Origin: a virus
DNA length: 34,175 bases
Reading direction: 5' to 3' (one strand)
Virus record (IMG/VR): IMGVR_UViG_3300021085_002202
Span: 1-34,175 of that record
The notes beneath the pieces were generated by a model. That model searched no databases, was not told the origin of the DNA, and was given only the letters and a program-made list of their open reading frames with translations. Position numbers and translations under genes: made by a program. Every line of letters begins with the position of its first letter. Position 1 is the stretch's first letter. Shown here piece by piece: positions 8,108 through 27,669 of the stretch.

Positions 8108-8680
8108 TTATTTATAAAGATTCTCACCTACATTCCTCATCTTGTCTGTTAATTTGACAAACGGTCGATATTTCTTAACGAGTAAATTGATACTCTCTAA
8201 GAAGATATCATCACTATTATCGCTCATTTTAAACAATTTGTCAAGCAAAACTAGCGTCTCAATTGATATTTTTTTACCAAGATATAGACGATAGACCAAT
8301 GCGTGATGACCTTGATCAGCGATAAATGGATCGGGGATGGATTCTTTTTCCATCTCCAGTTTTATCAATTCGATATCTTGTTCGAACTGATAATCTCTTC
8401 TTGCCTTGCGTGTCTTCCATTCTTTATATACTTCGGAAGCGTGTGAGTCAAACATCCCGCCCCACTTATCTCCAGAAACAAAGTTGGCGACCAACAAGTC
8501 AATGATTTCTTTTTTCTTATAGTCCCTTGCAAGTTTACGCATTGCAATAATATCTTTCCTTTTCAGGAATGCTTTCTGACTCGCCTTCACAGCACCACGT
8601 GTTTTTGTGATGTCATACTTCTCAGTCGTGAAGTGGAGTTTGAGAGCAAGATACAACTTGTAAACCTCAAATGGATCCAT
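8108..8680 (-). CDS. 59: gp59-like loader of the replicative helicase
   Basis: This 190-aa protein matches T4 gp59, which loads the gp41 helicase onto gp32-coated DNA at forks. The N-terminal MDPFEVYKLYLALKLHF parallels VYKLYLMIKQHM of T4, and FEQDIELIKLEM parallels FKFEEDIRNI. The C-terminal half keeps the ISIETLVLLDKLFKM motif (T4 ISFETFILLDSFLNI). The length is close to T4 (217 aa). It starts one base inside the gp33 stop and ends 62 nt before gp32, so gp33-gp59-gp32 form one leftward unit. Its final Tyr-Lys-stop codons contain a TATAAATA box. Confidence 0.88.
   Translation of the reverse strand: MDPFEVYKLYLALKLHFTTEKYDITKTRGAVKASQKAFLKRKDIIAMRKLARDYKKKEIIDLLVANFVSGDKWGGMFDSHASEVYKEWKTRKARRDYQFEQDIELIKLEMEKESIPDPFIADQGHHALVYRLYLGKKISIETLVLLDKLFKMSDNSDDIFLESINLLVKKYRPFVKLTDKMRNVGENLYK
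8109..8116 (-). promoter_or_regulatory. T4-type late promoter TATAAATA upstream of gp32
   Basis: The site is an exact TATAAATA formed by the gp59 stop region, 63 nt before the gp32 start. It could give gp32 its own late transcript. As at 3527 and 29481, it coincides with a Tyr-Lys-stop end. Confidence 0.5.
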
Positions 8681-8976
8681 TACAGAGGCAACTTCCCAGA
8701 CTTCTCAAACTTCAGAAGGTTGAGTTCTGATGCCTCCACTTTAATCTTATCTTTCAAAGATGTTGTAAGCAGTTTCTTTACGGATTCAATCTCCATCGTA
8801 TTCTTCTCACAGAAGGCAACAATAGTATCAATGTATCCAGAACCAGTCCGCACTGCTTCTTTCTCGATGTGTTGAGAGAAGTCCGAGGAACTTTTAAACT
8901 GCTTGGTGATTAAGTATTGATCTGTGACTTGGGATGCATCCGTCGTCATATCATTATCAACTACTACTTTCGGCAT
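8680..8976 (-). CDS. 33: Late-transcription coactivator gp33
   Basis: This 98-aa protein (from MPKVVVDNDM) resembles T4 gp33 (112 aa), which bridges RNA polymerase and the sliding clamp for late transcription. Similar parts are the helix YIDTIVAFCEKNTMEIESVKKLL (T4: YLEATTAFLEENSIPETQFAK) and EASELNLLKFEKSGKLPL at the C-terminus (T4: AIDENLLRPSVV...LDFLL). The ATG at 8976 follows a GGGAG site inside the end of the epimerase gene. A longer frame back to 9093 would overlap that gene by 137 nt and is rejected. Its presence fits the TATAAATA promoters found in the window. Confidence 0.82.
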   Translation of the reverse strand: MPKVVVDNDMTTDASQVTDQYLITKQFKSSSDFSQHIEKEAVRTGSGYIDTIVAFCEKNTMEIESVKKLLTTSLKDKIKVEASELNLLKFEKSGKLPL

Positions 8977-9802
8977 TGTGTAGTCTCCCTTTCCAATCTC
9001 TAATATATTCAATGACATCATGGCTCCGTTTAATATAGGGTTCATTACAAATAGTATGTTCAGCTTCACCTTTACGGTCAAACTCATAGACAACAGGGTG
9101 ATTAAATGCCTCTGCTATCTGATTAATTGTGTATGGATGGTTAGATCCGAAATGTGCTTCTCTCATTTTCTTTCCAGCAACAACAAGATTACACACTCCC
9201 ATCGCGACATCCTCTACATGAGTAAAATCTCTCGACTTCTTTCCTGTTCCAAAGACTCGCAGACTATCGCCTTTAAGGATTTGATTCTTAAATGCTCTGA
9301 TCACAGTACTGTGTTCTCCATAGTCTGCTTCCCTTGGACCATATACATTATAAAAGAACATGAGGTGAAAGTCAAGGGAATAATGCAAATTATAAAAATG
9401 TAATACTTCTTCGCACATCGCCTTACCAAACGTATAAGCATTTGCATATGCGTCGCTAAAATTGACGCTTGAAGACTGAGCAAAGTATAGAGGACATTGG
9501 AATCTGGTTGCCCATTCACACACAGCAACTGTCGGACTCACATTGTTCAGAATAGATTCTGCTGGGTGATCAAATGATGCTCTGACACGTGGCGTATTCG
9601 CAAGATGAATTATTGCATCACAGGGTGGTGGTGTCACGTCACACACGTTCTCGAAAATATAGCTGACATTAGAATGGTGAGATACATACCTACCATTTCT
9701 TCTATCATCGATTACTGTTATTCTGTAATCTCCTTCTGCCAGTAGATCGACTACATGACTTCCAATGAATCCACATCCACCTGTAACTACAATATGCATC
9801 AT
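8957..9802 (-). CDS. NAD-dependent epimerase/dehydratase (extended SDR)
   Basis: This 281-aa nucleotide-sugar SDR enzyme has the Rossmann glycine motif TGGCGFIG (7-14), the acidic residue ending beta2 (IDD, 31-33), the catalytic Ser region (SSS, 110-112) and Tyr123-x-x-x-Lys127. The NVYGPRE motif is typical of UDP-glucose 4-epimerase or dTDP-glucose dehydratase relatives. The substrate cannot be told. It is separated from the main glycan block by the tmRNA and sits between the SleB hydrolase and gp33, overlapping the first by 1 nt and the second by 20 nt. It probably supplies a modified sugar for host surface or virion glycosylation. Confidence 0.88.
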   Translation of the reverse strand: MMHIVVTGGCGFIGSHVVDLLAEGDYRITVIDDRRNGRYVSHHSNVSYIFENVCDVTPPPCDAIIHLANTPRVRASFDHPAESILNNVSPTVAVCEWATRFQCPLYFAQSSSVNFSDAYANAYTFGKAMCEEVLHFYNLHYSLDFHLMFFYNVYGPREADYGEHSTVIRAFKNQILKGDSLRVFGTGKKSRDFTHVEDVAMGVCNLVVAGKKMREAHFGSNHPYTINQIAEAFNHPVVYEFDRKGEAEHTICNEPYIKRSHDVIEYIRDWKGRLHNAESSS

Positions 9803-10329: not shown

Positions 10330-10917
10330 TTAGAACTTAACGACTACGCTTGTTCCCAAGAAATCGTCAGTCTTGTTGCCATCGCCATCTGTGTTGTATT
10401 CGTAAAATACACCAACACTCAAAGCATCAGACAATGCATAATCTATTCCAAAATCATTTTGTGATTCATAGAACTCACCATCACTATACACGTCACTATC
10501 AATAGCAAACTTTGGTTTCAAGTCAATGTAAGCACTTAATTTGTCTGTGAGTTGATAATCTGCTGCAATAATTGGTTGCAGGTTTACAAAGTCATCCTTT
10601 GCATTTGACTCGTATGTTTTAATTTCAGTTCGAGGTTTCAGATAGAAATTACCAACTAGATCAATTTTCGGTGCAGTCAATCTATAACGATTCTCTACAG
10701 TTCCACCACTATCTGTCCAACGATACGTGTAACCCCAACCTGCAAGTTTAGTGTCAAGTTGAACCATGTTATAATCAACGCCAGCAGTATATTTACGGAA
10801 AGTGATAGATGAGTTTCCTGTTGTAAACTGAATATTGTTTTCGATGTAATCTTCAACGGCATGAGCAGGGGAAATAGAAAATGCGACTGCTGCAGCACCA
10901 AGAATCAATTTGTTCAT
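10330..10917 (-). CDS. Secreted outer-membrane beta-barrel-like protein
   Basis: This 195-aa protein has a clean Sec signal peptide (MNKLILGAAAVAFSISPAHA, cleavage after A20). The rest alternates polar and hydrophobic residues in short strands (SITFRKYTAGVDYN, LAGWGYTYRWTD, RYRLTAPKIDLVGNFYLKPR, LSAYIDLKPKFAID, LSVGVFYEYN) and ends in phenylalanine (SVVVKF), the C-terminal signature for Bam insertion. An eight-to-ten strand barrel is plausible. I do not know a named homologue. A phage-made outer-membrane protein could mask receptors or block superinfection. It is the first protein gene after the tmRNA terminator, with an AGGA site before the start. Confidence 0.75.
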   Translation of the reverse strand: MNKLILGAAAVAFSISPAHAVEDYIENNIQFTTGNSSITFRKYTAGVDYNMVQLDTKLAGWGYTYRWTDSGGTVENRYRLTAPKIDLVGNFYLKPRTEIKTYESNAKDDFVNLQPIIAADYQLTDKLSAYIDLKPKFAIDSDVYSDGEFYESQNDFGIDYALSDALSVGVFYEYNTDGDGNKTDDFLGTSVVVKF

Positions 10918-10954
10918 ATGGATTAGTTTCCTAAAAGAGATATATTAAAATAAT

Positions 10955-10980
10955 GGGGACTTCTGTTGCTAGGCGTCCCC
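10955..10980 (-). terminator. Terminal hairpin of the tmRNA gene
   Basis: On the minus strand GGGGAC and GTCCCC form a perfect 6-bp stem with a 14-nt loop, followed by the T-rich ATTATTTTAAT. It could be the 3' terminator of the pre-tmRNA, and the stem may also be part of the last helix or pseudoknot of the coding piece. Confidence 0.65.
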
Positions 10981-10993
10981 TGACCCCGAGAAA

Positions 10994-11038
10994 TTATGCT
11001 GCTAGAGCAAAACCCTCATACGCGAAATTATCGTTTGC
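10994..11038 (-). CDS. tmRNA proteolysis tag frame: ANDNFAYEGFALAA
   Basis: The resume codon is GCA at 11038-11036, followed by codons giving A-N-D-N-F-A-Y-E-G-F-A-L-A-A and a TAA stop (10996-10994). The ANDN start and the -ALAA end are the hallmarks of tmRNA tags, and the C-terminal LAA is what ClpXP-type proteases read. The tag would be added after the alanine carried by the tmRNA. The ANDNFA start resembles alphaproteobacterial tags more than those I recall from marine cyanobacteria. Confidence 0.93.
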   Translation of the reverse strand, partial: ANDNFAYEGFALAA

Positions 11039-11127
11039 GTTTACTTTAGTTTCTTACGATTAAGGTTGCTTGCACACCTGTTCTCCACTTACCGAATCAT
11101 CCCCTGTCGAACCTATTCACCCCCATC

Positions 11128-11179
11128 AAAAACACACTCTTCAACTTGTAACCAACCTGATCTTCCAGAATGTGTTTTT
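11128..11179 (-). repeat. Inverted repeat closing the tmRNA intervening segment
   Basis: AAAAACACA (11128-11136) and TGTGTTTTT (11171-11179) are perfect 9-bp complements flanking the segment between the encoded CCA and the GGGGGTG 5' end of the coding piece. They would extend the acceptor stem in the precursor and mark the segment removed during maturation. Confidence 0.8.
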
Positions 11180-11243
11180 GGTGGAGGTGGCGGGAATCGC
11201 ACCCGCGTCCAGAGCAACTTTAAGTTTGCTTCATCGAACCAGT

Positions 11244-11251
11244 TATTTATA
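11244..11251 (-). promoter_or_regulatory. T4-type late promoter TATAAATA for the tmRNA
   Basis: The site is an exact TATAAATA directly upstream of the acceptor piece. A start 6-7 nt downstream would fall near 11238, at the beginning of the GGTTCGATG segment. It overlaps the -10 of a host-type promoter. Confidence 0.75.
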
Positions 11252-11277
11252 ATACATCAAATGAGGTAAAATGTCAA
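11249..11277 (-). promoter_or_regulatory. Host sigma70-type promoter for the tmRNA
   Basis: The -35 box TTGACA (11277-11272, within GTGCTTGACA) is followed by a 17-nt spacer and -10 TATTAT (11254-11249). The -10 shares bases with the late TATAAATA. The -35 overlaps the stop codon of the radical SAM gene. Confidence 0.8.
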
Positions 11278-12308
11278 GCACATTTACCACAAGTTAGTTT
11301 ACAAATATCAAACTGCCAATCTTTTGAAATAGTATCTAACATACCAGTTTCATATATTTCTTTCGGGGTGTATTTTTCGAGACTATTGAAGTCTTCCGAA
11401 TAACCCTTATCCAAATAGAAAGTTTTCGTGAAGCTGTCGTGTTTGTTGAAACGCCTCGACAGTTCGACAGAATGTGACATATGACAGCACGACCATAGTC
11501 TTTTATCAGCCGATATGTAAATCTGATGAAAAAAGTTAGAGTTACCAATAGAAGCATAGCAATATACTCCTCGATCCGAAGTGATTATATTAGGAGATTC
11601 CCAAAACGACATTTCTTTAGGATTGCGTTCTAGATTATGGTATTCAAGTTTATCGGTAGTTGTAAGACCACTTGTTGTAGAAGCTGATGCTGGTTCTAAT
11701 TCGTAATCACCGTCCAAAATAAGCAGGTTTTTGTTACCAAACCTATCCGAAAATCTTGGTAAAAACCTCTTAAATCCATAATCTTTGGCAAGTTTAGATG
11801 CCTGTTCCTCTTCGTTCTCATTATGCTTGAACAGCGTCATAACCCAGTTAGCTGAACCGCCTGCATCTATATATGCTCTTGCGTTCCTTATCACAGTTTC
11901 GTATCTCGTGTTTCTTCGGTATTTACTGTGTGAATCATTATTTACGCCATCTATAGCAAAATCCACACGTACATTAGGACGAGTCCCCAACCATTTCCAG
12001 AAATCAACGCTGAGACCACCACCATTTGTATTAATGGTGATATGTCTTCCCCCCAAAGCAAATATAAACTCTTTTGGGTGTGTGTGCATTACAATATCAC
12101 CAAAGTTTCCGTTTACAAGAATACTCACTACTCTTGACATCCATTCATCTTCTAGCAATTTTTTAATATCTTTGGCTGACCATTCTGTAATTTCTAGCGT
12201 GGGGTCTGTGTTCATCGTTGTGTCATGCGTCCTTGTGCATTGAGGACACCTTGCATTGCAAGCTGTGGTAGGCTCTAGATGAATCGACATTGGAAGATGT
12301 GAACTCAT
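11274..12308 (-). CDS. Radical SAM protein with C-terminal cysteine cluster (SPASM-like)
   Basis: This 344-aa protein has the radical SAM [4Fe-4S] motif C17-x3-C21-x2-C24 (CNARCPQC). Downstream is a TIM-barrel pattern with ITINTNGGGLS, VDFAIDGVNNDSHSKYRR (a typical beta4 block) and later Cys residues (CYAS, SCCHM, CKLTCGKCA) that could bind an auxiliary cluster. Similar proteins carry out difficult radical modifications of peptides, sugars or tRNA. The substrate here is unknown. It is the last gene of the leftward accessory block, 6 nt after the next radical SAM gene, and its end overlaps the tmRNA promoter. Confidence 0.85.
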   Translation of the reverse strand: MSSHLPMSIHLEPTTACNARCPQCTRTHDTTMNTDPTLEITEWSAKDIKKLLEDEWMSRVVSILVNGNFGDIVMHTHPKEFIFALGGRHITINTNGGGLSVDFWKWLGTRPNVRVDFAIDGVNNDSHSKYRRNTRYETVIRNARAYIDAGGSANWVMTLFKHNENEEEQASKLAKDYGFKRFLPRFSDRFGNKNLLILDGDYELEPASASTTSGLTTTDKLEYHNLERNPKEMSFWESPNIITSDRGVYCYASIGNSNFFHQIYISADKRLWSCCHMSHSVELSRRFNKHDSFTKTFYLDKGYSEDFNSLEKYTPKEIYETGMLDTISKDWQFDICKLTCGKCA

Positions 12309-12314
12309 TTTTAT

Positions 12315-13316
12315 TTACCGCAAATCAAAATCAGTTCCAAGCATATGATCTACCTTTGCATCTGGATCATTGCTCCAAACAAGAACTTCTGGATTATCGT
12401 ATAAGAAGTCGCAAGACTTACAATAGTCTGGATAGTCTCCAGTTCTATGACCTTCGCGCAGTTTTTCATACTCCTCGCCAAACCAGATATCTTCTAGACT
12501 TAACTCGTCTGCATGCCCGAGAACAGACTTGGATTCATTGGGTTGCCCCATAGTCTGACAACAAGGTGTAACAGCACCACGATGACCATCATTACCACCA
12601 GACCGAATCGTAATCTCATTACTGAATGGTCGTCCACAGGTTCTAACATTCTCTGTTTCTCTACCATATTCAGGATCGTAATTGCCGCTCCAGTTGTGCA
12701 TCTTCCAGATATAACCAGTGATTCCCATCTTGTTGATAACATTATCCTGATAGAGTTTCACCTCTTCCGCCATCTTATCGTTATCTAAAATTAGATGATA
12801 TGTGGATAGTTCGCAGTCGCTTCCGACTTCTTCAATGTATTGTTTTGCCTCTTGAATACGACCCATCAGATCTTCAAATGTATGTCCTGATTTATTATAC
12901 ATCCACTTGTTGTATGTGTCGTGATTATAACCAATGCAGCTGAATCGGATAAACTTAATTCCTGCCATGACGCAGTTCTTTAACAGTTCTCCTGTAAGTT
13001 TACTACCATTGGTATAAATGAAGCTGTCAAACCCATAATCAGTACAAAGCTGAACATATTTGTATAGATCTTTTGCCATCGTTGGTTCGCCTGAACCCTC
13101 GAGGTTGATGATTGGTTTACCTTTGAGTTGCTTCAGGATATCTTCAAAAAGATCCAGAGACATCTTTCGAGTCCAGTCTTTGCCTCGACCAACGGTCTGG
13201 GGGCACATATCGCATTTGAAGTTACATCCACCGAATACCTCGATGACTGCTCGACCCATCTCAGGTAATGAATTGGATTTGGTATTTTGCAAGGATTGAC
13301 TCATCATATAACTCAA
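12315..13316 (-). CDS. Radical SAM/SPASM protein
   Basis: This 333-aa protein has C31-x3-C35-x2-C38 (CNFKCDMC) in the context AVIEVFGGCNFKCDMCPQ, then INLEGSGEPTMAKDLYKYV, FIYTNGS and a C-terminal SPASM-like region: TPCCQTM, the LSLEDIWFGEEYEKLR block and YCKSCDF. These features are close to SPASM enzymes such as anaerobic sulfatase-maturase relatives. Two starts are possible. The one given overlaps the upstream gene by 56 nt. The ATG at 13259 (MGRAVIE) lies just after that gene's stop and would give 314 aa. The LPEM residues before MGRA look coding, which favours the longer form slightly. Confidence 0.85.
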   Translation of the reverse strand: MSYMMSQSLQNTKSNSLPEMGRAVIEVFGGCNFKCDMCPQTVGRGKDWTRKMSLDLFEDILKQLKGKPIINLEGSGEPTMAKDLYKYVQLCTDYGFDSFIYTNGSKLTGELLKNCVMAGIKFIRFSCIGYNHDTYNKWMYNKSGHTFEDLMGRIQEAKQYIEEVGSDCELSTYHLILDNDKMAEEVKLYQDNVINKMGITGYIWKMHNWSGNYDPEYGRETENVRTCGRPFSNEITIRSGGNDGHRGAVTPCCQTMGQPNESKSVLGHADELSLEDIWFGEEYEKLREGHRTGDYPDYCKSCDFLYDNPEVLVWSNDPDAKVDHMLGTDFDLR

Positions 13317-14076
13317 AAAATGGCAGAAGCATATAGGCTCGAAGTTTAGATTCGATACTTCCGTCTGTTGTAATATTCATCGGTGCGTTGCCGAGGGGTG
13401 ATACTGTCTCGCCATTGACGCTTATGTGGTATTTATGTAGAATCTCGAGTAACCTTTCACAAGGTTCTTTACAATGCTCATTATTCTGACCAGATTCGAA
13501 CAAACAATGGGGTATCACTGTTCCTTTCTCAGCGACCCAGTTGATCATATAATCCGCTTGTAAGATATCCTTCGTCCATTTATCGAACTTATCTTTCTTC
13601 ACGAATAGTTCTTTAAATGAAATTCGTTTACCGCCAGTGTTGAATGTGAGAAACTCGACTCTATCGTCTTCAGAACAAAACATCTTCAAGACTTTTTGGC
13701 GACCGCCTCCTGGATGGATGACCCATCTGTCATTTTCTTCTAATGGAAACCAAAAAAGACCCATTGGGTATTTGTAACCCACAGTGAAATAAACTCGCGT
13801 CAACCAAGCAAGTTTTAATGGAATTTCAAAATGTTCTGGAAAGTTATGTGTATCACACCCAATAAGTTTATTAGAATAAAATGAGTTTGATTTACAGGCA
13901 TAATTAATAAACCAATGCTCAAATGAGGTGATTAATTCTGCAACATTGCAATCGAAAGAAACGTCTTTAACTGCAAAGTTTGAAAGACCCCATTTCTCAG
14001 ATGGATCTTTAAACTTTAGCCAGTCTTCCCATGTAAAATTTGGGAGTGTTCGTAAACTATTCTGAGACATTCTCAC
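13261..14076 (-). CDS. Protein of unknown function
   Basis: This 271-aa protein is not recognised. It has no signal peptide, membrane segment or clear catalytic motif. The sequence is rich in aromatics (WEDWLKFKDPSEKWG, SFEHWFINYACKSNSFYSN, YKYPMGLFWFPLEEND) and looks globular and cytosolic. A cysteine pair occurs in CKEPCERLLEIL. It overlaps the nuclease gene by 20 nt and the radical SAM gene by up to 56 nt, so it is translated within the accessory operon. A second ATG (MSQNSL, 14070) is equally possible. Given its position it might serve the radical SAM enzymes, but this is only context. Confidence 0.6.
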   Translation of the reverse strand: MRMSQNSLRTLPNFTWEDWLKFKDPSEKWGLSNFAVKDVSFDCNVAELITSFEHWFINYACKSNSFYSNKLIGCDTHNFPEHFEIPLKLAWLTRVYFTVGYKYPMGLFWFPLEENDRWVIHPGGGRQKVLKMFCSEDDRVEFLTFNTGGKRISFKELFVKKDKFDKWTKDILQADYMINWVAEKGTVIPHCLFESGQNNEHCKEPCERLLEILHKYHISVNGETVSPLGNAPMNITTDGSIESKLRAYMLLPFFELYDESILAKYQIQFIT

Positions 14077-14722
14077 CCTCCCAAGTATCTCTTGCAGACA
14101 ATAACAACTCTACATAGTTGTCTCGTTTCTCAATGAATACTTGGGGATCGTCGCCCTCAACAGCAACCATAATTACACTCTGATCAATAGGGATACCAGT
14201 TCTTTCTTCATACATAACTGCATATGCTGCAGCCTGTGCAAAGTAACTGCCAATCCAGTCTTTTCGTTTTGGTTTAGCGGAGGTCTTGAAATCAATGATA
14301 GACAGCTTACCTTCATACTCAGCAATGCAATCAACTCGCCCTGCTAGTCGTAAATGGTCGCTGTATAGCGCGATCTCTTGACCGTGGATATTATCTATAC
14401 GGTCTAACAGAGGTCTGAAATTCATGAACATCTCCTTATCGAGTAAGGACATATTCGCCATATCAATGTCTTTGTTGTTCAGTATATCCTCGCACAATAA
14501 GTGTATCTTTGTGCCTCGAGTAGACGCTTGACGACTTACACGGTTGGCGACTTCTTCACCAACGCGATCCTTCCATTTCTGGATAGAATCTCGGGATAGA
14601 ACATTAAGGACAGTTGTAACGGAAGGGTATGCCGCACCAGAGTCAGTGAAATAACGTCTACTGCCATCTGGCGCGGTCTTGTCTTGAGCGAAATCAGCGA
14701 TTTCTTTTACATGATTAAACAT
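14057..14722 (-). CDS. PD-(D/E)XK exonuclease (RecB/Cas4-like fold)
   Basis: This 221-aa protein (from MFNHVKEI) shows the RecB-type nuclease elements in order: TRGTKIH (68-74, the G-T-x-x-H helix), GRVDCIAEYEGKLSIIDFKTS with D131, D144 and K146 as the PD-(D/E)XK triad, and SYFAQAAAYAVMY as the QxxxY helix. Marine T4-like phages carry similar single-domain exonucleases thought to process DNA ends in recombination or to recycle host DNA. The ATG at 14722 overlaps the upstream stop by 8 nt. A longer in-frame start at 14749 would overlap further and is less likely. Confidence 0.82.
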   Translation of the reverse strand: MFNHVKEIADFAQDKTAPDGSRRYFTDSGAAYPSVTTVLNVLSRDSIQKWKDRVGEEVANRVSRQASTRGTKIHLLCEDILNNKDIDMANMSLLDKEMFMNFRPLLDRIDNIHGQEIALYSDHLRLAGRVDCIAEYEGKLSIIDFKTSAKPKRKDWIGSYFAQAAAYAVMYEERTGIPIDQSVIMVAVEGDDPQVFIEKRDNYVELLLSARDTWEGENVSE

Positions 14723-15017
14723 TACGTTTCTTTCTTGGTTTGAAACCAAGGGTTTCCATTGCTTCTAGTGGGCTAGTGTTATTGACCAACTCAACGTACT
14801 GTTCAACTGTACAGTTCTTAACTAGGTAATTCATCCACGACTTCCATGGCTTAGAACCATACTTGAAACGAGCGATGAAAGTGCGTTCTGGCATACCGTA
14901 CCAGCTTGGGTGACAGTTAGGAGATACTTGCTCCATAGTGCGTGAACCTTCAAACGCACCCTGATACATCAAGTACATACCGTCCCAGCTAAAAAGGTCT
15001 TTATCAAATCTAGTCAT
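14715..15017 (-). CDS. Small conserved-looking phage protein, unknown function
   Basis: This 100-aa protein begins MTRFDKDLFSWDGMYLMYQG. It is not assigned. It contains ARFKYGSKPWKSWMNYLVKNCTVEQYVELV, a possible helix-turn-helix-like basic segment, and ends with RKKRNV. The start is set at 15017 behind a GAGAGAG ribosome-binding site. A GTG two codons upstream is in frame but closer to that site. It is the first gene after a strong sigma70-type promoter (15049-15076) and overlaps the nuclease, so the two may be early genes. Confidence 0.6.
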   Translation of the reverse strand: MTRFDKDLFSWDGMYLMYQGAFEGSRTMEQVSPNCHPSWYGMPERTFIARFKYGSKPWKSWMNYLVKNCTVEQYVELVNNTSPLEAMETLGFKPRKKRNV

Positions 15018-16223: not shown

Positions 16224-17660
16224 TTAAGATACGACCTTCACACCGTATCTTTTTTGAAATAAATCAGCATCTTTTCGACTATTTACCATCGGCTCGCCCT
16301 TAATATTCAATGACGTATTCATCAACATAGGTGTTCCAGTATGTTTTTTGTATTGTGTAAGTAACCTATAAAGACCAGCATGCTGTTCTCTTGTGACAGT
16401 TTGTACGCGACTGGTTCCATCTTTATGGACGATGGCAGGATATTTCTCGGGATCCTTCGCCTTTACGATAAATTGCATGTAAGGACTTTCAAAGTCCTTT
16501 TCAACACAAAAATATTTATGAACATCCTCTTGACGAATGACTGGAGCGAATGGTCTGAACTCTTGGCGTTGTTTTATTTTATTGACAAGGTCTTGCATTT
16601 CCTTACCTGTTGGGTTAGCAAGAAGACTTCTATTACCAAGTGCCCTTGGACCAAACTCAGCGCGACCGTTTGCAACACCAACAATATTGTTCTCCAATAA
16701 TTCAGAGAGTGCTTCCTTGACTGGATATCTACCCTTTATTTCTTCCCCGAGGTATGGCGTTTTCCAATTCAACATCTGCCTCTCACCTGCAGCGATTGCT
16801 CCAATAGAACTTCCAGCATCTCCTGGATTTGGCATCACCCAAATATTCTTGAAGAACTTACTAATGTGTCTATTCGCAAGACAATTTAAAGCACAACCGC
16901 CCATAAGAACTAGATTATCTGATTTGGCGAGAGTTTCAGTGAGGCTTAGAAGTTTGATGAATTCTTGTTCGTAAACTCTTTGTGCAGATGCAGCTAAATC
17001 AAAATGATCAGCTTGGGGGAAAGAGTTTCTACATCCACGATGAAAGTTAAACCCCGAACTGAGCATTGCGCTCATCTCTTCAACATGCCTTGGCTCTCCA
17101 TACGCTGACATACCCATGAGGATATACTCGTCCTCGTTTGCTTTGAGTTGAACGCGATCCGTTATTGCTGAGTAGAAGAGTCCGAGGGATTGTGGGTAAA
17201 CCCGTTTGCAAAGTTTTTTCCTGCTAATCTTACCGCTTTCATCAGTTGAATATAATGATATAGAAGTAGTGGTGAACTCACCAATAGCATCAATAACAAG
17301 AACGGCAGCTGAATCGAATTTAGAAGTAGCGAACCCAGCCGCTGCATGACTTTCGTGATGGTTTCCATACTTAATTTCTCCTTGTATACCATACTCACTC
17401 AGATATTTACGAGGATTCATCCATTTGTTTGGTTGTCCTGCTTTATATTTTCTGAGTGCTTTTTTATATGGGTCTTCATACCAATGAATGATATCAGGTT
17501 TCCCATATGATAATGCTTGCTCTATCATTTCTTGATTGAGGTGTGCATCATTCTTCTTCCTGCTATATCTCTCGGTGTGACTAGCAAAAAGAATTTCATT
17601 ATCTTTAACTACAGCAAGAGACCCATCATGAGTCCCTGCTGCAACGCCCCACTTAATCAT
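16224..17660 (-). CDS. Carbamoyltransferase (NodU/CmcH/TobZ family)
   Basis: This 478-aa protein transfers a carbamoyl group from carbamoyl phosphate to an acceptor hydroxyl through a carbamoyl-adenylate. It has the N-terminal Kae1-like domain with the metal-binding HHESHAA motif (about 100-106), LGLFYSAIT, NEDEYILMGMSAYGEP and LMGGCALNCLANRHI. The C-terminal domain has GRAEFGPRALGNRSLLANP and QEFRPFAPVI. It is shorter than TobZ/NodU (about 560-570 aa), mostly at the end. The acceptor is probably a sugar, given the SGNH, epimerase and glycosyltransferase neighbours. The start overlaps the 34-aa gene by 8 nt. Confidence 0.92.
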   Translation of the reverse strand: MIKWGVAAGTHDGSLAVVKDNEILFASHTERYSRKKNDAHLNQEMIEQALSYGKPDIIHWYEDPYKKALRKYKAGQPNKWMNPRKYLSEYGIQGEIKYGNHHESHAAAGFATSKFDSAAVLVIDAIGEFTTTSISLYSTDESGKISRKKLCKRVYPQSLGLFYSAITDRVQLKANEDEYILMGMSAYGEPRHVEEMSAMLSSGFNFHRGCRNSFPQADHFDLAASAQRVYEQEFIKLLSLTETLAKSDNLVLMGGCALNCLANRHISKFFKNIWVMPNPGDAGSSIGAIAAGERQMLNWKTPYLGEEIKGRYPVKEALSELLENNIVGVANGRAEFGPRALGNRSLLANPTGKEMQDLVNKIKQRQEFRPFAPVIRQEDVHKYFCVEKDFESPYMQFIVKAKDPEKYPAIVHKDGTSRVQTVTREQHAGLYRLLTQYKKHTGTPMLMNTSLNIKGEPMVNSRKDADLFQKRYGVKVVS

Positions 17661-25136: not shown

Positions 25137-25902
25137 TATATCTGGATGTACCACGGTTGGCAGCAACTGGGAGATTCCTACAGAAAAAGAAGCAACTGTT
25201 CAGGTGACATTACTCGAACAGAAACTGATAGATGTACCACCTCCAATAAGAAGACCCTCTGTGGCTTTGTATAGATTCACAGATCAGACGGGACAGAAAA
25301 AACAAAACGCGAATGGTGGAACATCATTCAGCACTGCGGTTACTCAGGCTCCAGATGTATATCTGATCAGAGCACTGAAGAGAGCGGCTGGCGGTAAGTT
25401 CTTCCAAGTCATTGATCGTTCTATTTTAGATGACCTCACCAAAGAGAGGCAACTGATAAGACAGACAAGGCAGAGTTATAATGGAGAAGGTGCAAAGAAA
25501 TTACCCGCGCTTACATTTGCAGGAATGCTTGTAACAGGTGGTATAGTTGGTTATGACCATGCTATGGATTCTGGTGGTGCTGGTGCAAGATATCTCGGTA
25601 TCGGAACTAGCAGAGAATTTAGTCGAGACACAGTGACTATCAATATACGTTTGGTGAGTGTCGCGACAGGGGAGGTATTACTCGAGGTAATATCAAGCAA
25701 AACAATACTATCGACTGCTTATGGTGGAGATGTATTTAAATTTATAGAGAAAGGCACTGAACTTGTCGAAATAGAGTCTGGTGTCGCTTCAAATGAGAGC
25801 GTATCTATTGCCACGCAAAGAGCAATTGAAACAGGTGTTCTGGAAGTCATCGAAAGAGGAAACTCTCTCGGATTCTGGACATACAACGGGAGTAACAAAT
25901 GA
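25081..25902 (+). CDS. csgG: Curli secretion channel lipoprotein CsgG
   Basis: This 273-aa protein is CsgG, the outer-membrane lipoprotein that forms a nonameric export channel for curli subunits. It has a lipoprotein signal peptide MRTVKLLSSLFLLGILGSSISG followed by Cys23, then the CsgG blocks SVALYRFTDQTGQ, the AVTQAPDVYLIRALKRA region, FFQVIDRSILDDLTKERQLIR, MLVTGGIVGYD and FSRDTVTINIRLVSVATGEVLLEV (the transmembrane hairpin region). Length is normal (E. coli 277 aa). The signal peptide is coded out of frame inside the csgF end. The stop overlaps the curlin-like start by 4 nt (ATGA). Confidence 0.93.
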   Translation: MRTVKLLSSLFLLGILGSSISGCTTVGSNWEIPTEKEATVQVTLLEQKLIDVPPPIRRPSVALYRFTDQTGQKKQNANGGTSFSTAVTQAPDVYLIRALKRAAGGKFFQVIDRSILDDLTKERQLIRQTRQSYNGEGAKKLPALTFAGMLVTGGIVGYDHAMDSGGAGARYLGIGTSREFSRDTVTINIRLVSVATGEVLLEVISSKTILSTAYGGDVFKFIEKGTELVEIESGVASNESVSIATQRAIETGVLEVIERGNSLGFWTYNGSNK

Positions 25903-26633
25903 ACACGTTACAAAAAAGACTATTTGTGATGCTGTTCCTACTAAACGCAGGGACATCGCCTTTGTTGGCTGATAATGCGATCTACATTGATCAAATTGGA
26001 TCAGGTGTAGATATTGATATTACTCAAGACGGTAGTGGTAACAAAGTTGGCGGGAGTGCCGACGATGACACTAAAATGATAGTGAGTGGTGACAACATCA
26101 CCATGAGCATCGATGCGGTCGGGTCAAGTAATTCCATCATCGGTAACATAGTTGGAGAAGGTAGCACCATCGACTTTGATATAGTCGGTAGCACCAACTC
26201 AATTGACTTTAATATTGATCCAACAAATACATATGGAGCCACTGATGGCGATTACACGCTGAATATATCTGGCGGTGACAACGACCTTGAATTGAACATC
26301 GGCACAGAAGATGCTGCAAGCAACGGTACATTTGATTGGATTGTTGATGGCGACTTCAACACAGCAACAATTAATATAGATGTTGGCAGCTTTAATAACA
26401 CTGTTGACTGGGTTGGTGATAACAACACCATAACGTATGATGCAGATGGTTATGATGGACACACGTTAAATGTGTTGGGTGATGGTAACTACTGGAACCT
26501 GACAGTCGATCAACAATCAACTCTGCAAGTAGATGAATTGGAGATAGAACTTGATGGTGATGGAACGTCTCATACGCCTGCAACGATTTGCATTAGCCAG
26601 TCTGATTCTGGTACTGCCACAGGTTGCCAATAG
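25899..26633 (+). CDS. Curlin-like repeat protein (probable secreted amyloid subunit)
   Basis: This 244-aa protein has a signal peptide (about 1-25, cleaved near PLLA-D), then an Asp/Asn/Gly/Ile-rich body. The first mature segment IYIDQIGSGVDIDITQDGSGN looks like a CsgA/CsgB repeat (x-I-x-Q-x-G-x-x-N). It is followed by irregular units about 15-24 residues apart, built on a hydrophobic-x-hydrophobic strand and G-x-x-N-x-hydrophobic turns (GDNITMSI, GSSNSIIG, GSTNSIDF, GDNDLELNI, GSFNNTVDW, GDNNTITY). The C-terminus carries two Cys. It sits directly after csgG, as a substrate gene would. The repeats are too irregular to call csgA or csgB. Confidence 0.75.
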   Translation: MNTLQKRLFVMLFLLNAGTSPLLADNAIYIDQIGSGVDIDITQDGSGNKVGGSADDDTKMIVSGDNITMSIDAVGSSNSIIGNIVGEGSTIDFDIVGSTNSIDFNIDPTNTYGATDGDYTLNISGGDNDLELNIGTEDAASNGTFDWIVDGDFNTATINIDVGSFNNTVDWVGDNNTITYDADGYDGHTLNVLGDGNYWNLTVDQQSTLQVDELEIELDGDGTSHTPATICISQSDSGTATGCQ

Positions 26634-27669
26634 TAGTGATGTTGGGCTGGTCGACCGAGCAGTTGGTTGGCGTCAAATTGTCAGAGCAGAAAAAGAATTA
26701 GAACCAGCAAAAGGTTCTGATGTTATATCGAAAGACGATCTTCGCACAGGGGACGGTCGTATGCAAGTGAAGTTTGTAGATGAAAGCAAACTTCGCATGA
26801 CTGAACACACACGCATTGTGATAGATAATGTTGTATTCGATAAAGACCCTAGTAAGTCAGATCTGGCTATGACCTTTGCCCAAGGGACTGCTCGGTTTAT
26901 TACAGGTTCCTTGGGTACAATCGAAAAAGAAAATATCAGACTCAGAACACCAACTGCATCTATCGGTATTCGCGGAACAGACTTTACAGTGACTGTCGAT
27001 GAGTTCGGTCGGACTCTAGTCATCCTCCTTCCAGATATGAATGGAATATCATCGGGAGAGATTATTGTTGCAACGATGACAGGAGAAGTCAGACTCAATA
27101 AGCCATTTGAATCTACAACAACCTCTGTTGGAGAACTACCGCCAACAAACCCAGCAATTTTAGACCTCTCCCTTGACATGCTAAACAATATAATGATTAT
27201 CAATCCACCCAAAGAAAGAATGTCTGTTGATGAATTTTATAGTACAACAGAAGCAGGTAAAAACATAAACCCACTTGACATCGACTTCTTAGACGAAGCA
27301 CTCCTAGAAGACGAGGAACTCGAAAGGGATTACCTTGAATACACCGAACTCGACATAAATTTCCTTGACGTTGATCTCCTAGAGAATCTTCTGGACTCAT
27401 ACTCAGATTTAGATGCTGAACTACTCAGAGAAGAACAACAAACAGGAGAAGTTGACATAGAAGGTACATCCGAGGGTTTCGATACTGTCACACAGGTTGT
27501 AACAATAGTCGACGGTGAGAAGGTAAATGTAAGGAGAGAAGTTTCATCTACTGTAAACATATCTGTAGATTCTAGCGCGGAAACAGAAATAGTCATCGAG
27601 CAAGACGGTAAGATGTTAGATCCAATCGTCATAAACGGAACAACCAACACAATAAATATAACACAATGA
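26554..27669 (+). CDS. FecR-domain periplasmic protein
   Basis: This 371-aa protein has a signal peptide (about 1-23, MVMERLIRLQRFALASLILV then PQVANS) and a FecR domain at about 30-180: GWRQIVRAEKELEPAKGSDVISKDDLRTGDGRMQVKFVDESKLRMTEHTRIVI and IRLRTPTASIGIRGTDFTV, which is the family signature. A low-complexity Asp/Glu/Leu-rich stretch (about 215-290, repeated LDxxFLDE-like segments) follows, and a beta-rich C-terminus. In bacteria FecR-domain proteins often sit next to CHASE2 cyclases, as here. The first about 80 nt overlap the curlin-like gene out of frame, so the whole signal peptide is coded there. The stop overlaps the cyclase start (ATGA). Confidence 0.85.
   Translation: MVMERLIRLQRFALASLILVLPQVANSSDVGLVDRAVGWRQIVRAEKELEPAKGSDVISKDDLRTGDGRMQVKFVDESKLRMTEHTRIVIDNVVFDKDPSKSDLAMTFAQGTARFITGSLGTIEKENIRLRTPTASIGIRGTDFTVTVDEFGRTLVILLPDMNGISSGEIIVATMTGEVRLNKPFESTTTSVGELPPTNPAILDLSLDMLNNIMIINPPKERMSVDEFYSTTEAGKNINPLDIDFLDEALLEDEELERDYLEYTELDINFLDVDLLENLLDSYSDLDAELLREEQQTGEVDIEGTSEGFDTVTQVVTIVDGEKVNVRREVSSTVNISVDSSAETEIVIEQDGKMLDPIVINGTTNTINITQ

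Follow-up and report, generated by a model that had tools for sequence, protein, structure and literature searches.

A predicted two-piece tmRNA gene in a T4-like phage, with joined early and late promoter elements and a spacer helix

The window, meaning the whole stretch of DNA analysed, is a marine virus record of 34,175 bases. It contains T4-like genes for a gp32-type single-stranded DNA-binding protein, a gp59-type helicase loader, a gp33-type late-transcription coactivator, a tail tube protein, a baseplate tube cap and a DNA end protector. A preliminary description, made from the letters alone, had assigned the record to a T4-like phage, and the gp32, gp33, gp59, tail-tube and baseplate genes bear this out. 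Between a radical SAM gene and a gene for a predicted outer-membrane protein, at about 10951-11277 on the minus strand, lies a permuted (two-piece) tmRNA, whose parts and neighbours are given in Table 1. Two adjoining radical SAM genes (11274-13316, minus strand) stand immediately upstream of it, one with a SPASM domain and the second common to several relatives. Elsewhere in the window, a carbamoyltransferase gene with both N- and C-terminal domains (16224-17660, minus strand) is surrounded by sugar-epimerase-like and radical SAM genes, and a protein with CHASE2 and adenylate/guanylate cyclase domains (PF05226, PF00211; 27666-29489, plus strand) is encoded near a CsgG gene (PF03783; 25081-25902). 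By eye, the neighbouring 25899-26633 resembles a protein with curlin-type repeats and 26551-27669 one of FecR type. A cyclase carried by a phage would be unusual.

Table 1. Features of the tmRNA locus and the genes that border it
Feature	Position	Strand	Remarks
-35 element TTGACA	11272..11277	-	overlaps the stop codon with which the radical SAM gene upstream ends; TTGAC[A/T] conserved here in related phages
-10 element TATTAT	11249..11254	-	17 nt from TTGACA; 11/12 matches
T4-type late promoter box TATAAATA	11244..11251	-	overlaps the -10 element by 3 nt
Acceptor piece, about 63 nt: T-arm, CACCTCC, discriminator A, encoded CCA	11179..11241	-	5' end inferred
Intervening spacer, 54 nt	11125..11178	-	closed by helix AAAACACATTCT / AGAGTGTGTTTT, flush with CCA
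Coding piece, about 174 nt, begins GGGGGTG	10951..11124	-	3' end inferred
Tag reading frame ANDNFAYEGFALAA + TAA	10994..11038	-
3' hairpin GGGGAC...GTCCCC, conserved loop GCAACAGAA, then T-rich stretch	10955..10980	-	corresponds to the 3' end of RF01849
Upstream gene, radical SAM protein	11274..12308	-	stop codon at 11274
Downstream gene, predicted outer-membrane beta-barrel protein	10330..10917	-	weak Pfam match; start at 10917
gp33-type late-transcription coactivator	8680..9093	-	one border of the syntenic interval
PD-(D/E)XK nuclease	14057..14749	-	other border of the syntenic interval

The permuted tmRNA that had been read on the minus strand was recovered by Rfam as full-model matches to RF04321 tmRNA_permuted (10994-11240, minus strand, 113.7 bits, E 1.1e-21, model positions 1-213 of 213) and to RF01849 alpha_tmRNA (10952-11281, minus strand, 100.7 bits, E 1.4e-26, model positions 1-355 of 355), for which the cut-offs are 47 and 50 bits, respectively; comparison with Rfam tmRNA models, alpha_tmRNA among them, was the check that had been proposed. 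ARAGORN called one permuted tmRNA in the window, with the tag ANDNFAYEGFALAA, which is of the ClpXP type and has the LAA end that had been noticed. A second permuted tmRNA site, returned by a looser pattern script, was false and was removed by a stricter one.

The T-arm reads GCGGG-TGCGATT-CCCGC, and the acceptor stem GGGGGTG/CACCTCC-A-CCA forms seven of seven pairs across the permuted ends, G3:U70 being present and the CCA ending at 11179. The encoded CCA, the GGGGGTG start, the 7-bp stem and G3:U70 could thus all be read directly from the sequence, as first described. Folded without constraints, the tRNA-like part and the spacer gave a single long hairpin in which the acceptor stem and the spacer helix are paired together (-48.6 kcal/mol; z -5.8; none of 200 shuffles as low). 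The inverted repeat said to close the 54-nt spacer pairs in this fold, and extends to 12 bp within the spacer if G-U pairs are counted. Lengths of about 63 and 174 nt for the two pieces are consistent with putative ends near 11241 (5') and 10951 (3'). In two relatives (L215, 10320-10820, and L211) the T-loop of the permuted tmRNA has six bases (TTCGAA) and not seven, and these genes still score 98-103 bits.

Phage-borne tmRNAs were described in mycobacteriophage Bxz1 and Bacillus phage G (PMC4131195). A permuted form in a T4-like phage had been suggested to be a novelty, a claim that falls because such genes were already at hand: one was reported in 2022 in the Methylophilales phage Melnitz (PMC9004378), and it is also present in the SAR11 phages Mosig and HTVC008M. 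The tmRNA structures of 402 phages included 53 two-piece forms, 50 of which belonged to marine or aquatic phages (PMC9004378). The tmRNA of the window is a further member of this described group. The genes of Bxz1 and phage G we take to be one-piece, not permuted.

Likeness to Melnitz ssrA (MZ577097, PMC9004378) extends to the permuted order, the place between nuclease and gp33, TTGACA-17-TATAAATA upstream, a spacer helix (9 bp in Melnitz) and a 14-residue tag ending in ALAA, whereas the Melnitz spacer has 142 nt and its tag is ANDNYVPVDYALAA. Melnitz also differs in that a glutamine riboswitch is reported with its ssrA; none was found in the window. Since linkage of this riboswitch to ssrA is common but not defining (PMC9004378), its absence leaves membership of the Melnitz type intact. 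Two relatives that carry the tmRNA have a glutamine riboswitch (RF01739) downstream of gp32 (L138, 8978-9081; L212, 14698-14801). The Pelagibacter phages Mosig EXVC030M and HTVC008M share with the window the permuted tmRNA, its place and the spacer helix, but have shorter tags (GEDNFALAA and ANFNEYALAA), and a clear combined promoter was not seen in them; in the HTVC008M record the tmRNA is unannotated. Chromosomal ssrA of alphaproteobacteria (RF01849, for example Caulobacter) resembles the window gene in the order acceptor-spacer-coding, in the tRNA-like domain and in a tag that starts with ANDN and ends with LAA, and differs from it in that the window gene has a sigma-70/late-box promoter.

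The tmRNA genes of Melnitz, Mosig and HTVC008M are situated between gp33 and a PD-(D/E)XK nuclease, which the HTVC008M record annotates as an exonuclease. The same two genes delimit the interval in the window, where further genes stand inside it, and the window so shows the syntenic position of the Melnitz/pelagimyophage type. Loci spanning nuclease to gp33 were fetched by protein searches and not by tmRNA; the 77 obtained are loci rather than independent phages, some contigs being overlapping or near-identical. About 60 of them carry a tmRNA, 58 detected by ARAGORN or the script and two more by Rfam, and all 28 tmRNAs placed by the script lie between nuclease and gp33 on the same strand. The stricter script itself overlooks a few members. 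No tmRNA was found in the other 17 loci, of which 16 were checked with Rfam and the seventeenth shares its contig with one of these, nor anywhere on the 138,660-bp contig L210, although its nuclease is 91% identical. These 17 of 77 loci, L210 included, mark the tmRNA as dispensable. Judged from the loci compared, the gene is old in the nuclease-gp33 interval, and its loss, or its return, has happened more than once. Apparent absence from the closest relatives (L136-L138 and L211-L216) was ruled out by Rfam and the script: their permuted tmRNAs have spacers near 20 nt and were missed by ARAGORN. This blindness to short spacers implies that published phage counts are likely too low.

Signs of constraint were sought by comparison with a relative (L129) whose neighbouring radical SAM protein is 97% identical over 220 residues and whose tmRNA has diverged. 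A C:G pair of the T-stem is replaced by T:A, a compensated change, and the spacer has grown from 54 to 68 nt with an unrelated interior, the helix adjoining the CCA being kept. The L129 tag, ANDNFAFEDYALAA, differs from that of the window in three residues; codon differences, counted in the alignment of the two tags, fall six times on third, three times on second and never on first positions, and the ANDN and ALAA ends are kept, with silent codon changes there. All four Watson-Crick types occur at T-stem pairs 1 and 2 among 74 distinct phage sequences; the search itself demanded T-stem pairing, so that only the variety of pair types counts as evidence. Each of the 94 distinct tag DNAs from phages codes for Ala-Ala at the end of the tag, the four GCN codons all occurring there, and Leu precedes Ala-Ala in 83 of the 94. 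The gene thus has what a permuted tmRNA should have, a tag frame with a stop under coding constraint, and these codon patterns indicate that it is the degradation signal of the phage tag that is so constrained.

Among distinct phage tmRNAs, a spacer helix of at least 7 bp beginning no more than two bases from the CCA was present in 44 of the 46 whose spacers are at least 40 nt long, and in one of the 29 whose spacers are shorter; shuffled spacers reached 8 bp in 0-3% of cases. When the register was fixed (first base after the CCA against four bases before GGGG), the first ten positions were 92.6% paired, by many pair types. The helix is not phage-specific, a possibility discarded on finding it in some alphaproteobacteria. 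It is the exception in the bacterial sample, which was chosen by score and length and mostly lacks it, and the rule in long-spacer phage genes. One bacterial spacer (L398, from genome G174 of about 3.7 Mb) has arms AAACACACGG/CCGTGTGTTT followed by TTGAT, closely like the phage arms; this genome gave two permuted tmRNA matches. Where the spacer is long, the helix may serve as a clamp, drawing the two acceptor strands into contact so that processing can follow. The prediction that it aids processing is testable in cultured Melnitz, Mosig or HTVC008M.

The box TATAAATA is that of T4 late promoters, reported from cyanophages as NATAAATA (PMC2984593). Nine copies stand in the window, where 1.6 would be expected, each on the strand of the following gene or tmRNA. 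The other eight boxes stand upstream of gene starts on their strand, at 0-25 nt (five on the plus strand) and at 34, 63 and 122 nt (three on the minus strand), and have no -35 element; TTGACA is found only at the box of the tmRNA. Boxes upstream of genes thus coexist in this genome with a gp33 gene, as T4-type late promoters require. Among 74 distinct phage tmRNAs, 46 have TATAAATA upstream, against 1.8% of shuffles. A -35 element with at least five of six matches at 16-18 nt accompanies 73% of 48 boxes near tmRNAs and 6% of 355 elsewhere, the latter including several tmRNAs missed by the script or gp32 genes. TTGACA and TATAAATA stand 20 nt apart in the window, a three-base offset between the two elements that recurs in L007, L039, L042 and L129; both elements are kept in this arrangement. 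TTGACW-N17-TATAAATA upstream of phage tmRNAs is a conserved junction of sigma-70 early and T4 late elements. The 17 bases between the elements vary from phage to phage, and the promoter stretch was therefore not recently shared. TTGACT-17-TATAAATA also precedes a gp32-type gene in L037, L052, L069 and L101.

A new class of promoter is ruled out, since overlapping early and late promoters have been described in RB49 and cyanophages, those of RB49 and S-PM2 being thought to give a middle mode of expression (PMC2984593); the Melnitz paper mentions an early promoter only (PMC9004378). New here are the joined promoter at the tmRNA, the spacer-helix rule, the coding-constraint test and the failure of ARAGORN at spacers near 20 nt; in the papers on phage tmRNAs examined, neither the joined promoter nor the CCA-flush helix is stated. 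Action late in infection, as first proposed, agrees with the late box, but the near-consensus host sigma-70 element predicts early expression too. The tmRNA promoter would then be used both early and late, and expression throughout infection is a prediction open to test in cultured Melnitz, Mosig or HTVC008M.

A permuted tmRNA above the cut-off was found in 174 of 190 alphaproteobacterial genomes. Most bacterial tags in the sample begin with ANDN and end with ALAA or AVAA, and the window tag is like them. The best DNA matches in 385 alphaproteobacterial genomes cover about 110 or fewer of the 327 nt, and the gene was therefore not recently captured from any sampled host. Scanning bacterial genomes with the T-arm/acceptor pattern returned mostly unrelated one-piece or chance matches and indicated no host. 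No SmpB was found in 11 phage records including the window, several of them fragments, which implies that host SmpB is needed.

That the RNA has tmRNA function is likely on this evidence, and we think it quite probable that it is a functional phage two-piece tmRNA of alphaproteobacterial type, vertically inherited at a fixed place in marine T4-like phages, transcribed from the combined promoter, processed, charged and delivered by the host, and serving tagging and rescue throughout infection. A single precursor would be made from the combined promoter, at first by the sigma-70 RNA polymerase of the host and afterwards by the gp55/gp33 late polymerase, and its acceptor stem and spacer helix would form a single long hairpin, keeping the two halves in contact. 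The 54-nt spacer would be excised by tRNA-processing nucleases of the host, leaving two base-paired pieces; host AlaRS would charge the tmRNA through G3:U70, host SmpB and EF-Tu would bring it to stalled ribosomes, and proteins left unfinished would be directed by the tag ANDNFAYEGFALAA to proteases of the host. Most probably the tmRNA would serve to keep ribosome rescue going throughout infection, while the host genome is shut off and broken messages abound.

Upkeep of the hijacked machinery and amino-acid recycling have both been proposed for phage tmRNAs (PMC9004378). Recycling of host proteins would also suit a retargeting tag, one unlike the host tag whose products go to another protease, or are degraded less or faster, so that host proteins are recycled or phage proteins spared. 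The middle of the tag does vary between close relatives (ANDNFAYEGFALAA and ANDNFAFEDYALAA); the ANDN and ALAA ends, however, match ordinary alphaproteobacterial tags and should be read by the same proteases, and retargeting appears unlikely. The RNA might instead be a decoy whose main effect is competition for SmpB, EF-Tu or AlaRS of the host, by which host trans-translation would be damped. In E. coli, tmRNA is inhibited by an RNA that has the tRNA domain only, of the kind found in phage DS6A (PMC4131195, PMC11915505), and the absence of SmpB from the records searched would fit; yet a decoy has no need of the tag frame, resume region and LAA end that are under coding constraint, and we hold this reading to be distinctly improbable. 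Phage integration at tmRNA genes is frequent (PMC9004378, PMC11590407) and presence of the gene among related loci is patchy, as might be expected of a captured host gene or attachment-site relic without function. Such a passenger should not, however, keep a fixed syntenic place across divergent T4-like phages, its own promoter, covariation and coding constraint, nor does any of the 385 bacterial genomes match beyond the extent given above; this origin is disfavoured and very improbable.

With a functional tmRNA as the preferred reading, the advantage of a second one is puzzling, as alphaproteobacterial hosts nearly always own a permuted tmRNA. One tentative reading, which we rate as possible but rather doubtful, is that marine T4-like phages keep their own trans-translation on through all of infection by means of TTGACW-N17-TATAAATA, a promoter that few further genes have, gp32 being one of these; most unfinished proteins in the infected cell would then bear the phage tag and not the host tag. 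Viruses with their own ribosome rescue would imply that stalled ribosomes limit phage production.
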